Assembly (NCBI RefSeq): GCF_013415325.1
Contig: NZ_JACBYE010000033.1
Span: 1 to 47,589 of the forward strand
Length of the DNA: 47,589 nucleotides
DNA from: Sanguibacter inulinus
GTDB lineage: Bacteria; Actinomycetota; Actinomycetes; Actinomycetales; Cellulomonadaceae
Direction of reading: 5' to 3'
A program made the position numbers and the translations under genes. Positions 17,558 to 24,319 of this stretch are shown here, piece by piece. How positions within the stretch are numbered: the first letter of the stretch is position 1; the number at the start of each line of letters is the position of its first letter. Below the pieces are notes generated by a model. It searched no databases, was not told where the DNA came from, and worked only from the letters and a program-made list of their open reading frames with translations.

Positions 17558-18148
17558 TCAGTCGTCGTCGACGGGGCCGTCGTTGTCGTCCATGTCGCCG
17601 TCGTCCTCGTAGACCTGCGGCCTGAGCGATGCGGCGACCGAGGCGAACAGCTGGAGAGAGTTCCCGAGGCCACCTGCGAGGGTCTCGTCGATCTGGTCCT
17701 GCGTCGCTCCAGGGCCGAAGTCGACCGAGTGCTCGGTGTACAGCGACAGGGCTCCGTTCTCACGGCGCACGTAGGCCTTCGGCCAGATCCTGTCCCTGTT
17801 CCAGTCGTTGACGATCTGCAGGGTGGCCACCCGGTTCGACTCGGCGAGCGGGCGGTGCCAGCGGCCGCGCACCTGGATGATGTCTTTGTCGACGCCCAGG
17901 AGCATGAACCAGAAGCGGTTGCCGTCCCACGTCCCGGTGATGTCACCGTCTTCGTCGAGCCGGAAGGTGTACCCGCGGGACCCGAGGTACGACGCCAACC
18001 TGTCGCGGGTGACCGCCGTCGGGACGTCGAGCAGGTTCGCGCTGGTCTCTTCGGCAGGCAGCGGGCCGGTCCGTTGGCGCGGGACGGCGTCGGGCAGCAC
18101 GGACAGCAGCCTCGACAGCCACGCGCGACGCGGCGCAGGGGTGCTCAT
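17558..18148 (-). CDS. YbjN-fold protein, paralog 1
   Basis: A 196-residue protein of the YbjN family, whose fold resembles type III secretion chaperones; the biochemical role is unknown. Residues about 45-170 hold the core shared with two other genes here: D-E-D-G-D, I-I-Q-V-R-G-R-W, N-D-W-N-R-D-R-I-W-P-K. The C-terminus is a run of Asp-rich residues. ATG 18148 overlaps the upstream gene stop as ATGA, so paralogs 1 and 2 are translationally coupled. It is the most divergent of the three copies. miaB is convergent, with a 97-base gap holding no strong terminator. Confidence 0.85.
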   Translation of the reverse strand: MSTPAPRRAWLSRLLSVLPDAVPRQRTGPLPAEETSANLLDVPTAVTRDRLASYLGSRGYTFRLDEDGDITGTWDGNRFWFMLLGVDKDIIQVRGRWHRPLAESNRVATLQIVNDWNRDRIWPKAYVRRENGALSLYTEHSVDFGPGATQDQIDETLAGGLGNSLQLFASVAASLRPQVYEDDGDMDDNDGPVDDD

Positions 18149-18756
18149 GGGGCCGCCTTCGCAGGGTCGGGGTAGTGGGCGTCGAGAGAGTCGAAGAGCA
18201 TCGCGGCCGTGCTCAGCCCGCAGCTGAGCAGCCTGTCGAGCTGTTCGTCGGTCGCGCCGTGCTCGAGGTCGACCGACATCTCGGCGTAGACCTGGATCAT
18301 GCCGTTGTCGCGCACCCGGAAGTACGCCTTGGGCCAGATGCGGTCGGTGTTCCACTCGTTGCAGAGGTCGAGGACCTCTTCGATCCGCTCGATGCTGATC
18401 TCACGGTTCCACTGGCCACGGACCTGGAGGATCTCGGAGCGGGACCCGAAGATGAGGAAGTAGAAGAGCCGAGAGTGCCACAGCCCTCCGACGTCCCCGT
18501 CCGAGTCGATGAAGTACGAATAGCCGTAGTCGCTGATCCACTCGATGACGCGCGCCCGTGTGACAGGGCGGACGCCGTGGACCTGGTCGAGAGCTGTCGC
18601 TGCACCGAGCTCGCGGGCGATGACCTCTTCGACGTCGAGACGCAGCTGCTCGTCGTCCCTGTCAGCCCCGCCGACGGCGGCCTGGGCCTCGTGAGAGGCG
18701 TGCGTGCCGGAGAGGCCACCCGTCCTGCGGTGACGCCGGTCCTTGAAGAGCCCCAT
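18145..18756 (-). CDS. YbjN-fold protein, paralog 2
   Basis: A 203-residue YbjN-family protein, probably cytosolic. The N-terminal 60 residues are variable and charged, beginning M-G-L-F as paralog 3 begins M-G-F-F. The core from about residue 75 shares D-x-D-G-D-V-G-G-x-W, I-L-Q-V-R-G-x-W, N-x-D-x-I-W-P-K and V-D-L-E-H-G-A-T with paralog 3, to which it is closer than to paralog 1. TAGGCT stands 6 bases before the ATG, suggesting a leaderless transcript covering paralogs 2 and 1. It is divergent from the gene at 18835. No catalytic motif is visible, and binding of partner proteins is an inference from the fold. Confidence 0.87.
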   Translation of the reverse strand: MGLFKDRRHRRTGGLSGTHASHEAQAAVGGADRDDEQLRLDVEEVIARELGAATALDQVHGVRPVTRARVIEWISDYGYSYFIDSDGDVGGLWHSRLFYFLIFGSRSEILQVRGQWNREISIERIEEVLDLCNEWNTDRIWPKAYFRVRDNGMIQVYAEMSVDLEHGATDEQLDRLLSCGLSTAAMLFDSLDAHYPDPAKAAP

Positions 18757-18762
18757 CCGTCC

Positions 18763-18768
18763 AGCCTA
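18763..18768 (-). promoter_or_regulatory. Candidate -10 box for the paired YbjN genes
   Basis: Minus-strand TAGGCT, 6 bases before the ATG at 18756 and without a ribosome site. It faces a second leaderless promoter for the divergent gene 55 bases away. Confidence 0.45.
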
Positions 18769-18822
18769 CAGCCGGTCCTGGGACCCGCGTCCGCTCGACA
18801 GCCGACGGTCAGGTGGTTGACG

Positions 18823-18828
18823 TACGGT
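18823..18828 (+). promoter_or_regulatory. Candidate -10 box for the gene at 18835
   Basis: TACGGT, 6 bases before the ATG; a TTGACG lies close upstream at 18817-18822 but is too near to be a normal -35. Confidence 0.4.
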
Positions 18829-18834
18829 GACACG

Positions 18835-19479
18835 ATGCACGCCATCCTCGCTCGTCTCACGCTGTCTCCGGTGCTGCTCCCCGGTGCCTCAGGACGCACG
18901 GACGTGTCTGCGCGGGCTCGCGCGGTCGTCGTCGCCCGGATCACCTCGCTGCTCGAGGAGGCAGGACTCAGCAGGCTCGGGGCGGGCGCGGAGGCCGACC
19001 ACCCCCACGTGCTCGTCGTCGCGCCTGCCCGTCGGCCGATGATCGCTGTCGACGCACGGCCCGACCTCGGCGCTCTCGGGCTCGAGACCTCCAGCGCTCC
19101 CGGCGGGCCAGGCTCCGGCGTCGGCGGTGGTTCGCCGGCCCTCGACGTGACGTCGGCCCTCGACGTGACCGCGACCGTCGCCGTCACGCTGCTGAGGCTG
19201 GCGGGCTGGCACGGGGCCGTCGAGACCATCGAGGTCGCCGGGCACGCCGACGACGGGGCGAACAGTGCCCATGACGCGCTCGCCGCCCTCGACTCTCTCG
19301 AGGCCGTGGTGTCGGCAAGGCTCCCAGGGCGCAGGCTGGTGCTGCTCGCGACGGGGTCGGACGAGGCCGAGCTGCCCGCCGGTGCGCGACCCGCGCTCGC
19401 CGTAGCGCACGCGAGGGTCCGCACGCTGGGCGACCGGCTGGGTGTCGCGCGGGTCAGCCCGGACGCTCTGGTCGACTGA
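18835..19479 (+). CDS. Hypothetical protein within the chaperone block
   Basis: A 214-residue protein that I do not recognise. It is Ala/Val/Leu-rich without a signal peptide or clear membrane helix. It has a short Gly/Ser/Pro linker near residue 95 and a small internal duplication (A-L-D-V-T twice, 19140-19168). Two alpha/beta-looking halves flank the linker, and the C-terminal half has a L-V-L-L-A-T-G-S-D strand-loop. ATG 18835 lies behind a leaderless-type -10 box. It runs opposite to the surrounding YbjN, TPR and Hsp90 genes and is divergent from the paired YbjN genes. Codon use is like its neighbours, so I believe it is a real gene. Confidence 0.65.
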   Translation: MHAILARLTLSPVLLPGASGRTDVSARARAVVVARITSLLEEAGLSRLGAGAEADHPHVLVVAPARRPMIAVDARPDLGALGLETSSAPGGPGSGVGGGSPALDVTSALDVTATVAVTLLRLAGWHGAVETIEVAGHADDGANSAHDALAALDSLEAVVSARLPGRRLVLLATGSDEAELPAGARPALAVAHARVRTLGDRLGVARVSPDALVD

Positions 19480-19535
19480 GCCTGTTCCAGCGCCCAGCGC
19501 CCCTGCGCCCAGCGGCACGCAGGCTTCCCTCGAGT

Positions 19536-19555
19536 CTCTGAGCGGCTGCTCAGAG
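19536..19555. terminator. Short hairpin between convergent genes
   Basis: Perfect 8-bp stem (19536-19543 with 19548-19555), loop of 4. It overlaps the stop codon of the TPR gene. Weak in size but well placed for the gene ending at 19479. Confidence 0.4.
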
Positions 19556-21721
19556 CGACAGGCGTCGGACCAGGTCCTCGGCCTCGGACGTCCGGCCCAG
19601 TGCTGTCAGCACCTCGACCAGCTCGCCCGTGACCTCAGCACGGGGCGCTGTCGACCGCACCATGGCGAAGCCCTCCGCTGCTGACTCGAGGAGCCAGACG
19701 GCGTCCTCGAGGCGGCCCTCGGCGCGGTCGAGCCGACCGGCGAGCCAGAAGGCGTGGGCGGCGTCCTCGACCATCCCGAGCTCGGCGAACGCCTCGGCAG
19801 CGGTCCTGGCTGCTGCCGTCGCCTCGTCGGTCTGGCCTGCGGAGGCCTGCGCACGAGCGAGGGTGTCGAGCAGCTGGGCGTGCTCCGCCGCGAGGACCGT
19901 CGCCCGACGCGCTCGGGTCGTGGCCTCGTCGGCCATCTCGGCCTCCGCGGCACCTGCGACGGCCTGGACCGCTCCGCGCGCCGCGGCCGTCTCGATCTCT
20001 GCGGCAGCCACGAGCGGCCCGAGGACGGACACGGCCGTCGGCACGGCGCCGACCGACACGCAGACCCGTGCGTAGGCCCTGGCGACAGGTCCTGTGTACT
20101 CGATGCCCGTCTCGGCGCGGGCGAGCAGCGCGAGGGCCTCGCGGAACGAGGACTCTGCCCCCTCGTCGTCTCCGAGCGAGCCGGCCAGGGCTGCTGCCTC
20201 GGCCAGGGCGAACCCGGCGGCCTCCGGCTCGTCGATCACCTCGAACATCTCAGCCGCCTGCGCGTACAGCCGCGCGGCGCTGACGGTCTCGCCCCGCGCT
20301 GCCGAGCTCTCGGCGGCCGAGACCAGGGCGTCGGGTCCGACACCGGCGCGGCCAGCGGTCTGGTCTCGCGACGGCTCAGCCGATGCCGCGGCGGTCGGAG
20401 CGCCTGCAGGCGCGCCGTCGTGCTCGGTCTCGTCCAGCAGGTATCCGGGTACGTCGCCCGCACCTGTGCCATGGTCTGCACCCACGGGCGACCCTGTCGA
20501 CCCCGTCGGTGCGGCAGCGGCCGCGGAGCCCGCAGGCGCGTCAGGCGCACCGGAGCCTGCGACCTCGTCCCGTCCAGCAGTCAGGTCGCCGCCCCGTCCC
20601 GCGGGCAGGTCCGCGCCGTGGCCTGTGAGCACGCTGAGGTCGACGCGGAGCTCGCTGTGCCCGCCCGACCAGGCGCGCAGCACACGCTCGGTCGAGGCGC
20701 TGGTGCCACCCCGCCTGTCGAAGGCGGCGGCGAGCTCGAGGGCCTCTCCGTGCATCCAGTCGTCGAGCTCGGCGACTGTCGTCGCAGGGACCCCCGGGTA
20801 CGAGACGGCCCGCAGCGGGTGGTGCCGGCGCAGGACGCTGACCCCGGTCCCGGCGTGCAGCAAGAACGAGAGCCTGTCGGCCGGGGTCTCGGCCTTCGTG
20901 AGCAGCCCGGCGGACCTGTCGAGGAACCTCCAGGCCGCGGAGTGGTTGCCCGACCGTGCGAGGAGCTGGACGTGTCGCCCTTGCGCCCCCGCCAGCTCAC
21001 CGCTCGTCGGCAGGCTCTGCAGGCCGTGCCGGTGCGCCCTGGCCGCGCCCTCGGCGTCCCCGACCTCGAGATAGGCGAGCTGGAGCTGGGAGAGCCTGTC
21101 TGCCGGTTCGGAGTGGCACGAGGCCGACGTGGCCTCGGCGGACTCCAGCAGGCGGATGCCCTCCTCGTAGCGGCCAGCCTCGAAGAGGTAGGCGGTGCGG
21201 TCGCCCGGCTCGCAGGCCGGGCACTGCGAGAAGTCGTCACGCTCGGTCGTGATCCACCGCTCGTAGGCGGCAGGCAGCTCGTCGTCGCCGAGCAGGTGGT
21301 GCCACTGGAAGGTGAGGTGGTTGACGGCGCTCATCCCGTTGCCCGCCAGCTGGTAGCGGCGACGCATGTCGTCGAGCGTCGAGGTGATCTGCGCGGCCGG
21401 GATGGCCGGGAACTCCATGAGGTTGCCGACCATCCACTTGAACGACCAGAACAGGGAGTGCACGTCGTGCTGGTCGAAGAGCTCGGGGTGCTCGTCCCAC
21501 AGCCTCACGGACTGGGTGAACGGGAGGTACGCCTTCTCGACCTCGTCAGAGAAGGCGTAGGACTCGGTGAGGGCGAACAGCGCGAAGGCGCGTGCCTCCT
21601 GGGGGCCTTCGGTGGTGACCTCGCGGACGAGTGCCGCGGCCACCTCGTTGCGGGCCGAGCCGAAGGGCAGGTCACGGGCCTTCATGATCGCGCGGTTCAT
21701 GTCGTCGAGCTGGCGTGCCAT
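19550..21721 (-). CDS. Large tetratricopeptide-repeat protein paired with Hsp90
   Basis: A 723-residue soluble protein. Residues about 15-330 form a helical, TPR-like N-terminal half with a C-P-A-C pair near residue 163. A disordered Ala/Gly/Pro/Thr linker (about 385-450) follows, then a second TPR-like array to the end, rich in E-A-A-A-x-x-G and A-E-x-x-x-x-L-G repeats. Its start codon overlaps the stop of the Hsp90-family gene (TGATG), so the two are translationally coupled. TPR proteins are classical Hsp90 partners in eukaryotes, so a co-chaperone or client-scaffold role is a reasonable inference, but nothing in the sequence proves it. No signal peptide and no enzyme motif are present. Confidence 0.85.
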   Translation of the reverse strand: MARQLDDMNRAIMKARDLPFGSARNEVAAALVREVTTEGPQEARAFALFALTESYAFSDEVEKAYLPFTQSVRLWDEHPELFDQHDVHSLFWSFKWMVGNLMEFPAIPAAQITSTLDDMRRRYQLAGNGMSAVNHLTFQWHHLLGDDELPAAYERWITTERDDFSQCPACEPGDRTAYLFEAGRYEEGIRLLESAEATSASCHSEPADRLSQLQLAYLEVGDAEGAARAHRHGLQSLPTSGELAGAQGRHVQLLARSGNHSAAWRFLDRSAGLLTKAETPADRLSFLLHAGTGVSVLRRHHPLRAVSYPGVPATTVAELDDWMHGEALELAAAFDRRGGTSASTERVLRAWSGGHSELRVDLSVLTGHGADLPAGRGGDLTAGRDEVAGSGAPDAPAGSAAAAAPTGSTGSPVGADHGTGAGDVPGYLLDETEHDGAPAGAPTAAASAEPSRDQTAGRAGVGPDALVSAAESSAARGETVSAARLYAQAAEMFEVIDEPEAAGFALAEAAALAGSLGDDEGAESSFREALALLARAETGIEYTGPVARAYARVCVSVGAVPTAVSVLGPLVAAAEIETAAARGAVQAVAGAAEAEMADEATTRARRATVLAAEHAQLLDTLARAQASAGQTDEATAAARTAAEAFAELGMVEDAAHAFWLAGRLDRAEGRLEDAVWLLESAAEGFAMVRSTAPRAEVTGELVEVLTALGRTSEAEDLVRRLSL

Positions 21722-23628
21722 CAGGCTGCGCCCCCGTCCAGGTGGTCGTGGCGCTCGGGGTCTCGCGGCGCGGCGGCGCTGCGCATCAGGGTCGAGAGCG
21801 CATCGGTCATGAGGTTCGCCTCGTGGGCGGGCAGCGGGCGGCCGGACTGCAGCAGCGCCGTGACGTACAGCGCCTGGGCACCGGCCTCGCGGACCACCCG
21901 GTCAGCGACGTCGAGCACGTCGCGCACGGCAGGGTTGGCGTCGTTGAGCACGAGCCGGCGTCGGTGCTGCGGCTTGGAGAACTGCCCGAGGACGCCGCCC
22001 CACAGGTCGGCAGCCTCGGACACCGTCGAGGTGACCTCCTGCTCGTGGTCTGCGTCGCGGTCGTCGAGGAGCATCGACGGGATCTGCGCAGGCTCGAAGG
22101 TCCGCAGGTCCACGTCGCACCCGCCTGCTGCGAGGACCTCACGGATGCTCACGAGAGCGTCGGTCGTCTCGAGGGCACGCAGCGGCTCGAGGGGGAGCAG
22201 CACCTGGGAGACGTCCGAGGCCGAGACCGGCATGACGGTCCACGACGGCCTGCGGGTGCGCACGCGCTCGAGGAGGTCGGCGTCGTAGACGTACCCGGCG
22301 TTGACGACGGGGAGGTCCTGGGCGTGCGCGACAGGCGCGATCCGCCGGTATCCCTCGACCGTCGGTGTGAAGTGGATCTGGCCGTAGCGCTCGTGGATCT
22401 CGGCGAGGGTCGCCTGGCCCGTCGTGCACTCGAAGGGCAGCACCTCGACGGCCAGGTCGAGCATGTCGTCGTCGACGAGGGCCAGGGCGCGCACCGCGAG
22501 GTGGTGCACGGCGAGGAGCTGGGCCGAGCCCGCGTCGCGCAGAGCGAGGGTCTCGAGGGTCCACCGGCGGATCCGCGCGCCGAGAGCGTCACGGGTGGCG
22601 AGCAGCACGTCGTCCTCGTACAGGCCCTCTCGTGAGGCTGTCGGGCGCACCGCGGTCGTGTTGACGACGCAGCGCACGAAGAAGGCCCACGGCGGCAGCA
22701 GCTCGTCGACCTTGGTGCCCAGCAGCATCCTCTTGAGGTAGACCCTGTGGGCGCTGCTCGTCGTGGGGGACACCGCCGTCGGCAGCACGAAGGCCACGCC
22801 GCTCAGCCCGGCGAGCGGCAGGTCGAGGTCGATCGAGGCGAGCGGCGTGAACCCGAGGGCCGACTCGCAGTACGACCTCAGGGCGAGCTCCCGCGCTCGG
22901 GGGGTCTCGTAGGTCTGCTCCCACGGGAGCACGGGCTCGCTGAGGGAGCGGGAACGGACCGAGCCGTCGGCGTCCTCGACCTCGAGCAGCAGCTCGACGG
23001 GCAGGAGCGAGCCGAAGTCGGCGGCGAGGGCCGCCACGGTCTCGGGCTCGAGCCAGTGCTCGAGGTCTCGGCGCGGCGCGAGACGCACCGTGCTGCCCGG
23101 CTGCTCAGGTCTCCTCGGGTCGTCGTCGGAGAGCTCGACCAGCGTGTACCGCCCGTCCGCGTGACCTGTCCACCGCACGGCCGGGGCCTGGGGGTGACGG
23201 GCCGAGCGCGAGACGAGCTCGATCTCGTCGGCGACCATGAAGGCCGACAGCAGCCCGATGCCGAACTGCCCCAAGAACTGCTCGCGGCCCGTGCCCATCT
23301 CCAGGTCGCGCTTGGAGCTGCGCCCGATGGTCGCGAGGAGCTCTTCGGCCTCGGCCAAGGTCAGCCCCACACCGGTGTCGGTCACCTCCAGGCTGCCGTC
23401 GGGACGGCAGCGCAGGGTGACCCGGGGGGTGGTCGCCCCCGGACCCGCCGTCGACGGGTCGCCGGGGGACGAGACACCGGGGGACGAGTCGCCCACCTCG
23501 GCCAGCGCGGTGATGGCGTCGGTCCCGTTCTGCAAGAGCTCCCTGAGGTACACCCGAGGGCTGCTGTAGAGGTGGCGGGCGAGGAGGTCGACGATCCCGC
23601 CGAGGTCGACCTGGAAGGTCTGGCTCAT
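21721..23628 (-). CDS. Hsp90-family protein (actinobacterial type, HtpG-like)
   Basis: GHKL-type ATPase chaperone of 635 residues. Present are the N-box E30 and N34 (R-E-L-L-Q-N-G-T-D-A), D-T-G-V-G (84-88), and Q-F-G-I-G-L-L-S-A-F (121-130), followed by middle- and C-terminal regions of HtpG length. It diverges from standard HtpG: the usual E-L-I-S-N-A-S-D-A reads E-L-L-Q-N-G-T-D-A. A Ser/Pro/Gly-rich loop (residues about 47-68) also interrupts the ATPase domain. It sits 10 bases after the third YbjN gene, with a GAGGAG site inside that gene's 3' end, and is coupled to the TPR gene. I infer a YbjN3-Hsp90-TPR operon. Whether it complements housekeeping HtpG functions is unknown. Confidence 0.92.
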   Translation of the reverse strand: MSQTFQVDLGGIVDLLARHLYSSPRVYLRELLQNGTDAITALAEVGDSSPGVSSPGDPSTAGPGATTPRVTLRCRPDGSLEVTDTGVGLTLAEAEELLATIGRSSKRDLEMGTGREQFLGQFGIGLLSAFMVADEIELVSRSARHPQAPAVRWTGHADGRYTLVELSDDDPRRPEQPGSTVRLAPRRDLEHWLEPETVAALAADFGSLLPVELLLEVEDADGSVRSRSLSEPVLPWEQTYETPRARELALRSYCESALGFTPLASIDLDLPLAGLSGVAFVLPTAVSPTTSSAHRVYLKRMLLGTKVDELLPPWAFFVRCVVNTTAVRPTASREGLYEDDVLLATRDALGARIRRWTLETLALRDAGSAQLLAVHHLAVRALALVDDDMLDLAVEVLPFECTTGQATLAEIHERYGQIHFTPTVEGYRRIAPVAHAQDLPVVNAGYVYDADLLERVRTRRPSWTVMPVSASDVSQVLLPLEPLRALETTDALVSIREVLAAGGCDVDLRTFEPAQIPSMLLDDRDADHEQEVTSTVSEAADLWGGVLGQFSKPQHRRRLVLNDANPAVRDVLDVADRVVREAGAQALYVTALLQSGRPLPAHEANLMTDALSTLMRSAAAPRDPERHDHLDGGAA

Positions 23629-23638
23629 GCGCGGGCCG

Positions 23639-24109
23639 TCACTCCTCGGGGATGCCGAGGCGCTCGGCCAGCCGCTCGAAGGAGCGCAGACCCGTGAAGA
23701 GGCCGCAGGAGATGAGCTGGCCCAGCTGCGCGTCGCTCACACCGTGCTCGAGGTCCGTCGAGACCTCGGCGTACACGCCGATCTCGTCGTCCTCGGCCCT
23801 GACGTAGAGCTTGGGCCAGATGAGGTCGCGATTGTACTCGTTGAGCAGGAGGGCGAACTCCGCCTCGCGGGCGACCGGGAAGGAGTGCTTCCACCGCCCG
23901 CGCACCTGCAGCACCTCCTGGGACTCGCCCATGAGGAAGAAGTAGAAGACGTTGTCGTCCCACTGGCCCCCGACGTCGCCGTCAGGGTCGATCCCGAAGT
24001 TCCAGCCCTGCTCGGTGAGGAAGGACTCGATGCGCGCCCGGGTGAGCGGTGCGTTGTCGCCGGAGGCGGCGAGTGCCGGAGCAGTCTCCGGCTTGTTGAA
24101 GAAGCCCAT
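23639..24109 (-). CDS. YbjN-fold protein, paralog 3, first gene of the Hsp90 operon
   Basis: A 156-residue YbjN-family protein, the shortest of the three and nearly all core: D-P-D-G-D-V-G-G-Q-W, V-L-Q-V-R-G-R-W, N-R-D-L-I-W-P-K and T-D-L-E-H-G-V-S. ATG 24109 has AGGAG 9 bases upstream. The frame stays open for 120 codons before it, but that stretch is Pro/Ala-rich, has no start after the likely transcription start near 24290, and is treated as a leader of about 180 bases. The next gene, Hsp90, is 10 bases away. A YbjN protein leading a chaperone operon suggests it binds clients or the chaperone itself; this is inference. Confidence 0.88.
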   Translation of the reverse strand: MGFFNKPETAPALAASGDNAPLTRARIESFLTEQGWNFGIDPDGDVGGQWDDNVFYFFLMGESQEVLQVRGRWKHSFPVAREAEFALLLNEYNRDLIWPKLYVRAEDDEIGVYAEVSTDLEHGVSDAQLGQLISCGLFTGLRSFERLAERLGIPEE

Positions 24110-24296
24110 CGTGTCGTTCTCCTGGGGTGGTGTCGGTGCGTGCTGGTGCCACGGCGCCGTGCTCCTGGTGGGGCCAGGCGGTGCCGTCGGCCCCTCGGCG
24201 GGGCGGGCGCCGCTGTCGGCCCCGGGAGCGGGGTCGGGCGGTGCTGGCGAGGGTGCCGCGGTCGAGGACGCCGCGGTCGTCTGCTGATTCCCGTTC

Positions 24297-24319
24297 ACCC
24301 TAGGTCCACACGGCGACAA
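24297..24319 (-). promoter_or_regulatory. RecA-NDp/PafBC-like promoter of the YbjN3-Hsp90-TPR operon
   Basis: Minus strand: TTGTCGCCG (7 of 9 to TTGTCRGTG), exactly 8 bases, TAGGGT. The two hexamers are 11 bases apart, too close for an ordinary -35/-10 pair, which favours the PafBC-type reading. The leader from about 24290 to 24110 is Pro/Ala-coding in frame but untranslated by my start choice. Confidence 0.45.

Follow-up and report, generated by a model that had tools for sequence, protein, structure and literature searches.

A candidate chaperone unit around a divergent Hsp90 gene and its TPR-like neighbour in Sanguibacter inulinus and relatives

Known Hsp90 and YbjN systems and the Sanguibacter inulinus unit

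The eukaryotic tetratricopeptide repeat (TPR) co-chaperones Sti1/Hop and Cpr6 are described as docking on MEEVD (PMC11687934; this and the other papers cited by PMC number are drawn on in excerpt), and no obligate Hsp90 co-chaperones have been identified in bacteria according to Press et al. 2013 (PMC3708813). The genes hsp90B and hsp90C were excluded from the analysis in that paper, the excerpt of which describes no partner gene for either. Streptomyces coelicolor is reported to possess two Hsp90 copies from different groups, one of them 615 amino acids (aa) in length (PMC1525184). Among the YbjN proteins, that of Escherichia coli has been proposed to be a protein stabilizer and its relative DR1245 binds DdrB (PMC3575483), while a type III secretion chaperone-like dimer fold is known for AmyR (PMC5398634) and DR1245 (PMC3575483). 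Here, we describe a divergent Hsp90 gene of Sanguibacter inulinus, encoded within a stretch of 47,589 nucleotides (contig NZ_JACBYE010000033.1; the whole of this stretch is referred to as the window), which is followed directly by a gene for a TPR-like protein and preceded by a YbjN gene. The features of this unit are as follows.

23639..24109, minus strand: YbjN3, 156 aa, a member of the Hsp90-linked YbjN clade (PF10722, E 4.9e-25)
21721..23628, minus strand: Hsp90-family protein, 635 aa, of the NF010683/PRK14083 type (NCBIfam, 766.4 bits)
19550..21721, minus strand: TPR-like partner, 723 aa, recognised from alignments (nothing over cut-off in Pfam)
20630..21721, minus strand: TPR-N, the conserved domain of the partner and the first row of search profile A1

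The YbjN3 stop codon is separated from the Hsp90 start codon by 10 nt, and the Hsp90 stop codon overlaps the ATG of the partner gene by 1 nt, YbjN3-Hsp90-TPR (24109-19550, minus strand) thereby representing a tightly coupled operon.

The window Hsp90 scored 766.4 bits against NF010683 (cut-off 455) and 130.7 bits against the HtpG model NF003555 (cut-off 371), and by these profile scores it is of the NF010683 type and not a canonical HtpG. This little-studied subfamily is itself already known and named (NF010683/PRK14083, 'HSP90 family protein'), and it probably corresponds to the paralogue that Chen 2006 and Press 2013 designate Group C/hsp90C. A search of the S. inulinus genome with NF010683 returned the window gene as its sole Hsp90, along with two weak extra matches (E 7.5e-4 and 1.9e-3). 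Residues R27, E28, N32, D35, D82, G84, G86, G118-x-FGIG and S330-R331-E332 were shown to be at least 98% conserved in a 127-row alignment, some rows of which are the same gene fetched twice. These motifs also align with TRAP1 and, by sequence, the nearest solved structures are TRAP1 and HtpG. The Glu, Asn, Asp-x-Gly-x-Gly, GxFGIG and middle-domain Arg elements are taken here to have the roles of Hsp90 ATPase residues.

Pairing and co-inheritance of Hsp90 and TPR-N

To describe the distribution of the pair, a census was performed on 197 genomes of the class and 149 genomes of the order, two overlapping samples, with a TPR-N threshold of E up to 1e-5. Matches over cut-off to NF010683, to TPR-N and to YbjN were found in 24, 26 and 174 genomes of the class sample and in 25, 24 and 77 genomes of the order sample, respectively. 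A TPR-N gene was located downstream and on the same strand in 46 of the 49 NF010683 genes (42 genomes across both samples, S. inulinus included), with the two profile matches at most 121 nt apart in 41 cases and 0.9-1.5 kb apart in the other five. Viewed from the side of the partner, 52 of the 66 TPR-N profile matches were positioned within 5 kb of an NF010683 Hsp90, so that the neighbourhood survey proposed in an earlier note on this DNA, which was made from the sequence alone, finds the TPR homologues mostly beside Hsp90. Within the class sample, 23 genomes carried both genes, one carried the Hsp90 only, three carried TPR-N only and 170 carried neither (Fisher p = 1e-25, with no correction for relatedness), and in the two samples together the pair spans 23 genus codes and 12 family codes.

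As a control, Hsp90-like genes scoring below the NF010683 cut-off were examined, and none of 37 (32 from the class and five from the order sample, leaving out G584, a fragment of a broken gene) was found to have TPR-N within 5 kb; the closest TPR-N on the same contig as any such gene was 176 kb away. In the phylum sample, typing of nine genes below the cut-off identified every one as canonical HtpG, six of these being from genomes that are also in the class sample.

Named relatives were collected by their Hsp90 as the best 80 of 151 loci, a set biased to near relatives. TPR-N is located directly downstream of Hsp90 in 78 of these 80, and the other two (L054 and L081) end at a contig edge; because of this retention, the couplings observed in the window exceed chance. 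The two genes overlap or lie no more than 10 nt apart in 94 of 111 pairs, with an exact 4-nt overlap in 57, in a count that includes a few duplicate loci and in which the TPR start was set at whichever start codon was closest to the Hsp90 stop, a choice that favours overlaps. In three loci (L151, L152 and L153), a second TPR-N gene is present in tandem behind the first; L151 and L152 also have 1.2-1.5 kb between Hsp90 and the first TPR-N gene, and the Hsp90 frame of L153 is broken. One Streptomyces-type group (L121:8699-9685; L122-L124 and L142) carries a conserved gene of 329 aa directly upstream of Hsp90, for which no Pfam family was matched.

The pair was also met, in the plasmid collection, in Paenibacillus cellulosilyticus and Listeria monocytogenes, the Hsp90s of which score 714 and 799 bits, respectively, against NF010683, over its cut-off. 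The partner in these two species is 320-354 aa long and thus extends barely beyond the N-domain. In L. monocytogenes (L140:8989-13616, NZ_LR134399.1), Hsp90 is followed by two TPR-like proteins of N-domain size and then by an SMI1/KNR4 (SUKH) gene, with fri adjoining; the Hsp90-family gene is probably lmo0942, as placed by the fri neighbourhood described in the excerpt of PMC3534079.

Phylogenetic comparison of Hsp90 and TPR-N was performed for 108 loci and the window. The distances in the two trees were correlated (r = 0.92), 68 of 106 splits were common to both, and 49 strong splits were shared from among 74 in the Hsp90 tree and 64 in the TPR-N tree. By tree distance, the nearest others to two Rhodococcus copies are Leucobacter copies for Hsp90 and TPR-N alike, which suggests that both genes were transferred together.

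The 723-aa partner consists of an N-domain (approximately residues 1-365) and a second half (approximately residues 470-723), joined by a low-complexity linker. The N-domain contains C167-x2-C170, C202, P206 and an FDxR motif (F334-D335-x-R337). G21, W96, C167, C170, C202 and P206 were invariant in 37 aligned N-domains, and C167, C170, C202, P206 and R337 in 47 full-length rows, in which F334 and D335 were at least 90% conserved. Fifteen sequences read by eye, including those from Listeria, Paenibacillus, the Streptomyces-type loci and Actinomyces oris, one free-standing copy and both of the fusion proteins described below, have the three cysteines in 15 of 15 cases, the proline in 14 (G171 differs) and FDxR in 14 (FGAR in L076). 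These cysteines may represent a metal- or redox-sensing site.

The TPR label that the earlier note had given to this protein is weak for the window protein itself. The window protein passed no Pfam model (the best TPR model being TPR_19, with 14.3 bits against a cut-off of 25) and had no NCBIfam match, while one of two Listeria homologues narrowly passed TPR_8 (26.1 versus 25.7 bits). A comparison of the partner profile with solved structures gave 33 PDB matches, most of them to TPR or pentatricopeptide repeat (PPR) proteins, with E 3e-6 to 0.69 or 0.8; these are weak matches in which mostly no single stretch passes alone. 'TPR-like' is therefore used here as a fair, though unproven, label.

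The YbjN genes and the surrounding region

Three YbjN genes, one Hsp90-family gene and the 723-aa gene occupy positions 17558-24109 on the minus strand, flanked by MiaB (TIGR01574) and MiaA (TIGR00174), each over cut-off. DapF and HflX, present in the surroundings, likewise exceed their NCBIfam cut-offs, and RNase Y falls slightly short (450.9 bits versus 454.35). The remaining features of the cluster are listed below.

18835..19479, plus strand: open reading frame (ORF) between the units, 214 aa from ATG, outside the module (no match in Pfam or NCBIfam)
18145..18756, minus strand: YbjN2, 203 aa, of the miaB-side pair, outside the Hsp90 unit (PF10722)
17558..18148, minus strand: YbjN1, 196 aa, of the miaB-side pair, with an ATGA overlap with YbjN2 (PF10722)

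YbjN2 and YbjN1 (18756-17558, minus strand) overlap by 4 nt and form a separate pair. Because the opposite-strand ORF is positioned between this pair and YbjN3-Hsp90-TPR, the cluster is composed of two units and not of one operon. Counterparts of that ORF were observed in two of 85 loci searched (L007 and L008, both Sanguibacter, 33-37%). Both the gene content between miaB and miaA and the two coupled units had been recognised in the earlier note, and they agree with the family matches, the 10-nt gap and the two overlaps reported here; its end of the cluster at 24319 overshoots, as the YbjN3 ATG is located at 24109.

The three YbjN genes match PF10722 with E 4.9e-25, 3.2e-29 and 2.6e-28 (88.6, 102.2 and 99.2 bits against a gathering cut-off of 22), and they are the sole PF10722 matches in the S. 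inulinus genome. A comparison of YbjN3 with solved structures using phmmer revealed no credible relative. A same-strand YbjN gene is present beside Hsp90 or the pair in 76 of the 80 named loci, at most 1.2 kb upstream in 62 and downstream only in 14 more, and absent in four. Within the order sample, a miaB match was found within 5 kb of 50 of 107 YbjN genes (29 of 77 YbjN genomes) and an NF010683 Hsp90 within 5 kb of 13 of 107 (seven genomes), four genes being near both; this count entered only those miaB or Hsp90 places that possibly share a contig, the rest being judged by eye to lie elsewhere. On these figures, a module of all five genes was rejected. In these 29 genomes YbjN, often as a tandem pair, is thus found within 5 kb of miaB, an unexplained link to a tRNA modification gene; among the 80 named loci, 31 were also found to have miaB near Hsp90.

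A YbjN tree was constructed from 81 domains (158 before the removal of near-duplicates), nearly all of which came from loci that had been retrieved because of their Hsp90 or TPR-N. One clade (support 0.957) comprises 48 Hsp90-linked YbjNs, of which 38 are upstream and ten downstream of the pair, and it includes YbjN3 of the window, while genes of the YbjN1 and YbjN2 types fall into other clades. Given these clades and the miaB linkage, YbjN3 looks like a dedicated member of the Hsp90 unit, with YbjN2-YbjN1 as mere neighbours. The sampling of the tree makes the exclusively Hsp90-linked composition of the YbjN3 clade a weak test. The association of YbjN with Hsp90 asserted previously is accordingly retained for the YbjN3 clade, subject to this sampling, and dropped for YbjN proteins as a whole (present in 174 of the 197 class genomes, against 24 for the NF010683 Hsp90) and for the miaB-linked pair; likewise, the dedicated Hsp90 system narrows from five genes to YbjN3-Hsp90-TPR, YbjN2-YbjN1 being tied to miaB.

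Fusion proteins in which TPR-N is joined to a YbjN domain were identified in G204 and G466, both of one other genus (L128:6382-8106 and L129:6169-8016). A separate YbjN gene lies in front of each, and no NF010683-type Hsp90 is located beside them; a miaB match near L129 has 30% identity only. In Actinomyces oris (L143:7208-11925, NZ_CP116225.1), two YbjN genes precede a TPR-N protein of 1011 aa, again with no Hsp90 beside it. Together, the fusions and the A. oris locus indicate that YbjN, like Hsp90, is a recurrent partner of TPR-N.

Interpretation and comparison with known systems

The reading that we favour, with a probability of roughly 0.6, is that a divergent bacterial Hsp90 forms the core of a chaperone unit and has an adaptor dedicated to it, with YbjN as an addition in the Actinomycetales relatives. 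This reading is based on the order and translational coupling of the genes, on the co-inheritance of Hsp90 and TPR-N, on the YbjN3 clade and the fusions of TPR-N with YbjN, and on the conservation of the ATPase residues and the cysteines; adjacency and fusion count as evidence that genes are functionally linked. In such a unit, Hsp90 would act as an ATP-driven clamp, and the N-domain of the partner (CxxC...C, FDxR) would most likely dock on it and serve as a regulatory platform. The variable C-terminal part of the partner may recruit or select clients, and YbjN3 may hold or stabilise them, consistent with what has been proposed for YbjN of E. coli and for DR1245. Physical contact, the direction of client transfer and the binding of a metal by the cysteines are what we infer from these sequence features.

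Several observations weigh against this reading. Three of the 49 NF010683 genes are without a typical TPR-N: in G419 a TPR gene is located downstream, while a weakly similar helical gene is found downstream in G597 and upstream in G598 (E-values of this comparison refer to a database of three sequences), and the helical genes of G597 and G598 show no CxxC within the region of similarity. Fourteen of the 66 TPR-N matches have no NF010683 Hsp90 within 5 kb, and some of these free-standing copies are long proteins with unrelated neighbours; eight neighbours of free-standing TPR-N (L127, L145 and L147) and two of the Streptomyces-type Hsp90 were shown to have nothing in common. Ten of the 74 strong Hsp90 splits are contradicted by the TPR-N tree. 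As regards YbjN, the YbjN3 clade does not include the pairs adjoining Hsp90 in L160 and L161, the fused YbjNs cluster with the YbjN2 type (support 0.853) and not with YbjN3, and a YbjN within 5 kb of the NF010683 Hsp90 is present in only seven of the 25 order-sample genomes that carry this Hsp90. The Streptomyces-type, Paenibacillus and Listeria loci that were examined showed no YbjN next to the pair, which is why YbjN is not considered a core part of the unit.

The main rival holds that the helical protein, being large, hard to fold and furnished with a cysteine cluster, is the principal dedicated client of Hsp90, and that its free-standing function, in signalling or as a scaffold, would account for the operon. 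An operon of Hsp90 and the TPR gene suits a chaperone and its client equally well, and the 14 TPR-N matches away from an NF010683 Hsp90 speak for it. However, the partner in Listeria and Paenibacillus is merely of about N-domain size, the N-domain is better conserved than the remainder, and the retention of a single obligate client across phyla would presumably be unusual, so that we regard this explanation as unlikely. An alternative in which the genes form an island for stress or defence that moves horizontally, with the Hsp90-like ATPase and the TPR protein directed against invaders rather than at general folding, draws on the patchy distribution (24 of 197 class and 25 of 149 order genomes), on the apparent co-transfer between Rhodococcus and Leucobacter, and on the frequent use of a GHKL ATPase with a TPR protein as a defence design. 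It appears improbable in view of the weak, GHKL-type PADLOC matches (best E 0.005), the housekeeping neighbours miaA, miaB, dapF and hflX in the window, and the lack of any relative in viral_contigs, as judged by a pattern-based scan that detects close relatives only. Least credible, and in our estimation very improbable, is a passively inherited order of neighbours without joint function: adjacency is expected to persist in close relatives, and miaB lies near Hsp90 in the 31 named loci mentioned above, yet the pair extends over 23 genus codes, 12 family codes and another phylum, the YbjN3 type shifts its position while staying beside the pair, and TPR-N-YbjN fusions exist.

A phage-borne unit was also considered and rejected, the viral_contigs scan for close relatives having returned none. 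The phages collection yielded 33 records; among the ten listed, two cover at least 80% of the query, and one of these records is an unannotated faecal sequence of 6.6 kb (39%).

Beyond the favoured chaperone unit, a bolder proposal is an ancient Hsp90 branch with an obligate three-cysteine helical co-chaperone that reaches from Firmicutes to Actinobacteria, in which the YbjN of the Actinomycetales relatives acts as a client adaptor, the whole being an independent counterpart of the eukaryotic Hsp90-TPR arrangement. This remains tentative, and we would put it at somewhat below even odds. The near-constant partner gene represents a concrete and testable co-chaperone candidate, for example in Streptomyces, and bears on how bacterial Hsp90s choose their clients and on whether co-chaperone control arose repeatedly. 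It also provides a first context for an unnamed helical-repeat family and for some of the YbjN proteins, which as a family are poorly understood. Among the papers listed from the literature within reach, which leaves out bioRxiv and most subscription papers, no report of the Hsp90-TPR-N pairing was recognised from titles and the openings of abstracts.

Compared with the eukaryotic systems of Sti1/Hop and Cpr6, the window likewise combines an Hsp90 with a helical-repeat partner. Unlike in those systems, no EEVD ending was seen in any of the 24 Hsp90 C-termini inspected, which vary in sequence; docking of the EEVD type was therefore rejected, and with it the mechanistic side of the analogy to eukaryotic TPR co-chaperones drawn in the earlier note. 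The structure matches of the partner profile are weak and generic to TPR/PPR proteins, none of them being Hop-type. With canonical HtpG (NF003555), the window Hsp90 shares the superfamily and the ATPase motifs, whereas the nine typed actinobacterial HtpGs all scored 697-797 against NF003555, compared with just 155-199 against NF010683, and, unlike the NF010683 genes, none of the 37 sub-cut-off relatives has TPR-N within 5 kb. As for known YbjN proteins, a link to Hsp90 or TPR genes is not mentioned in the excerpts of PMC3575483 and PMC5398634, and YbjN3, YbjN2 and YbjN1 of the window all lie well above the PF10722 cut-off.

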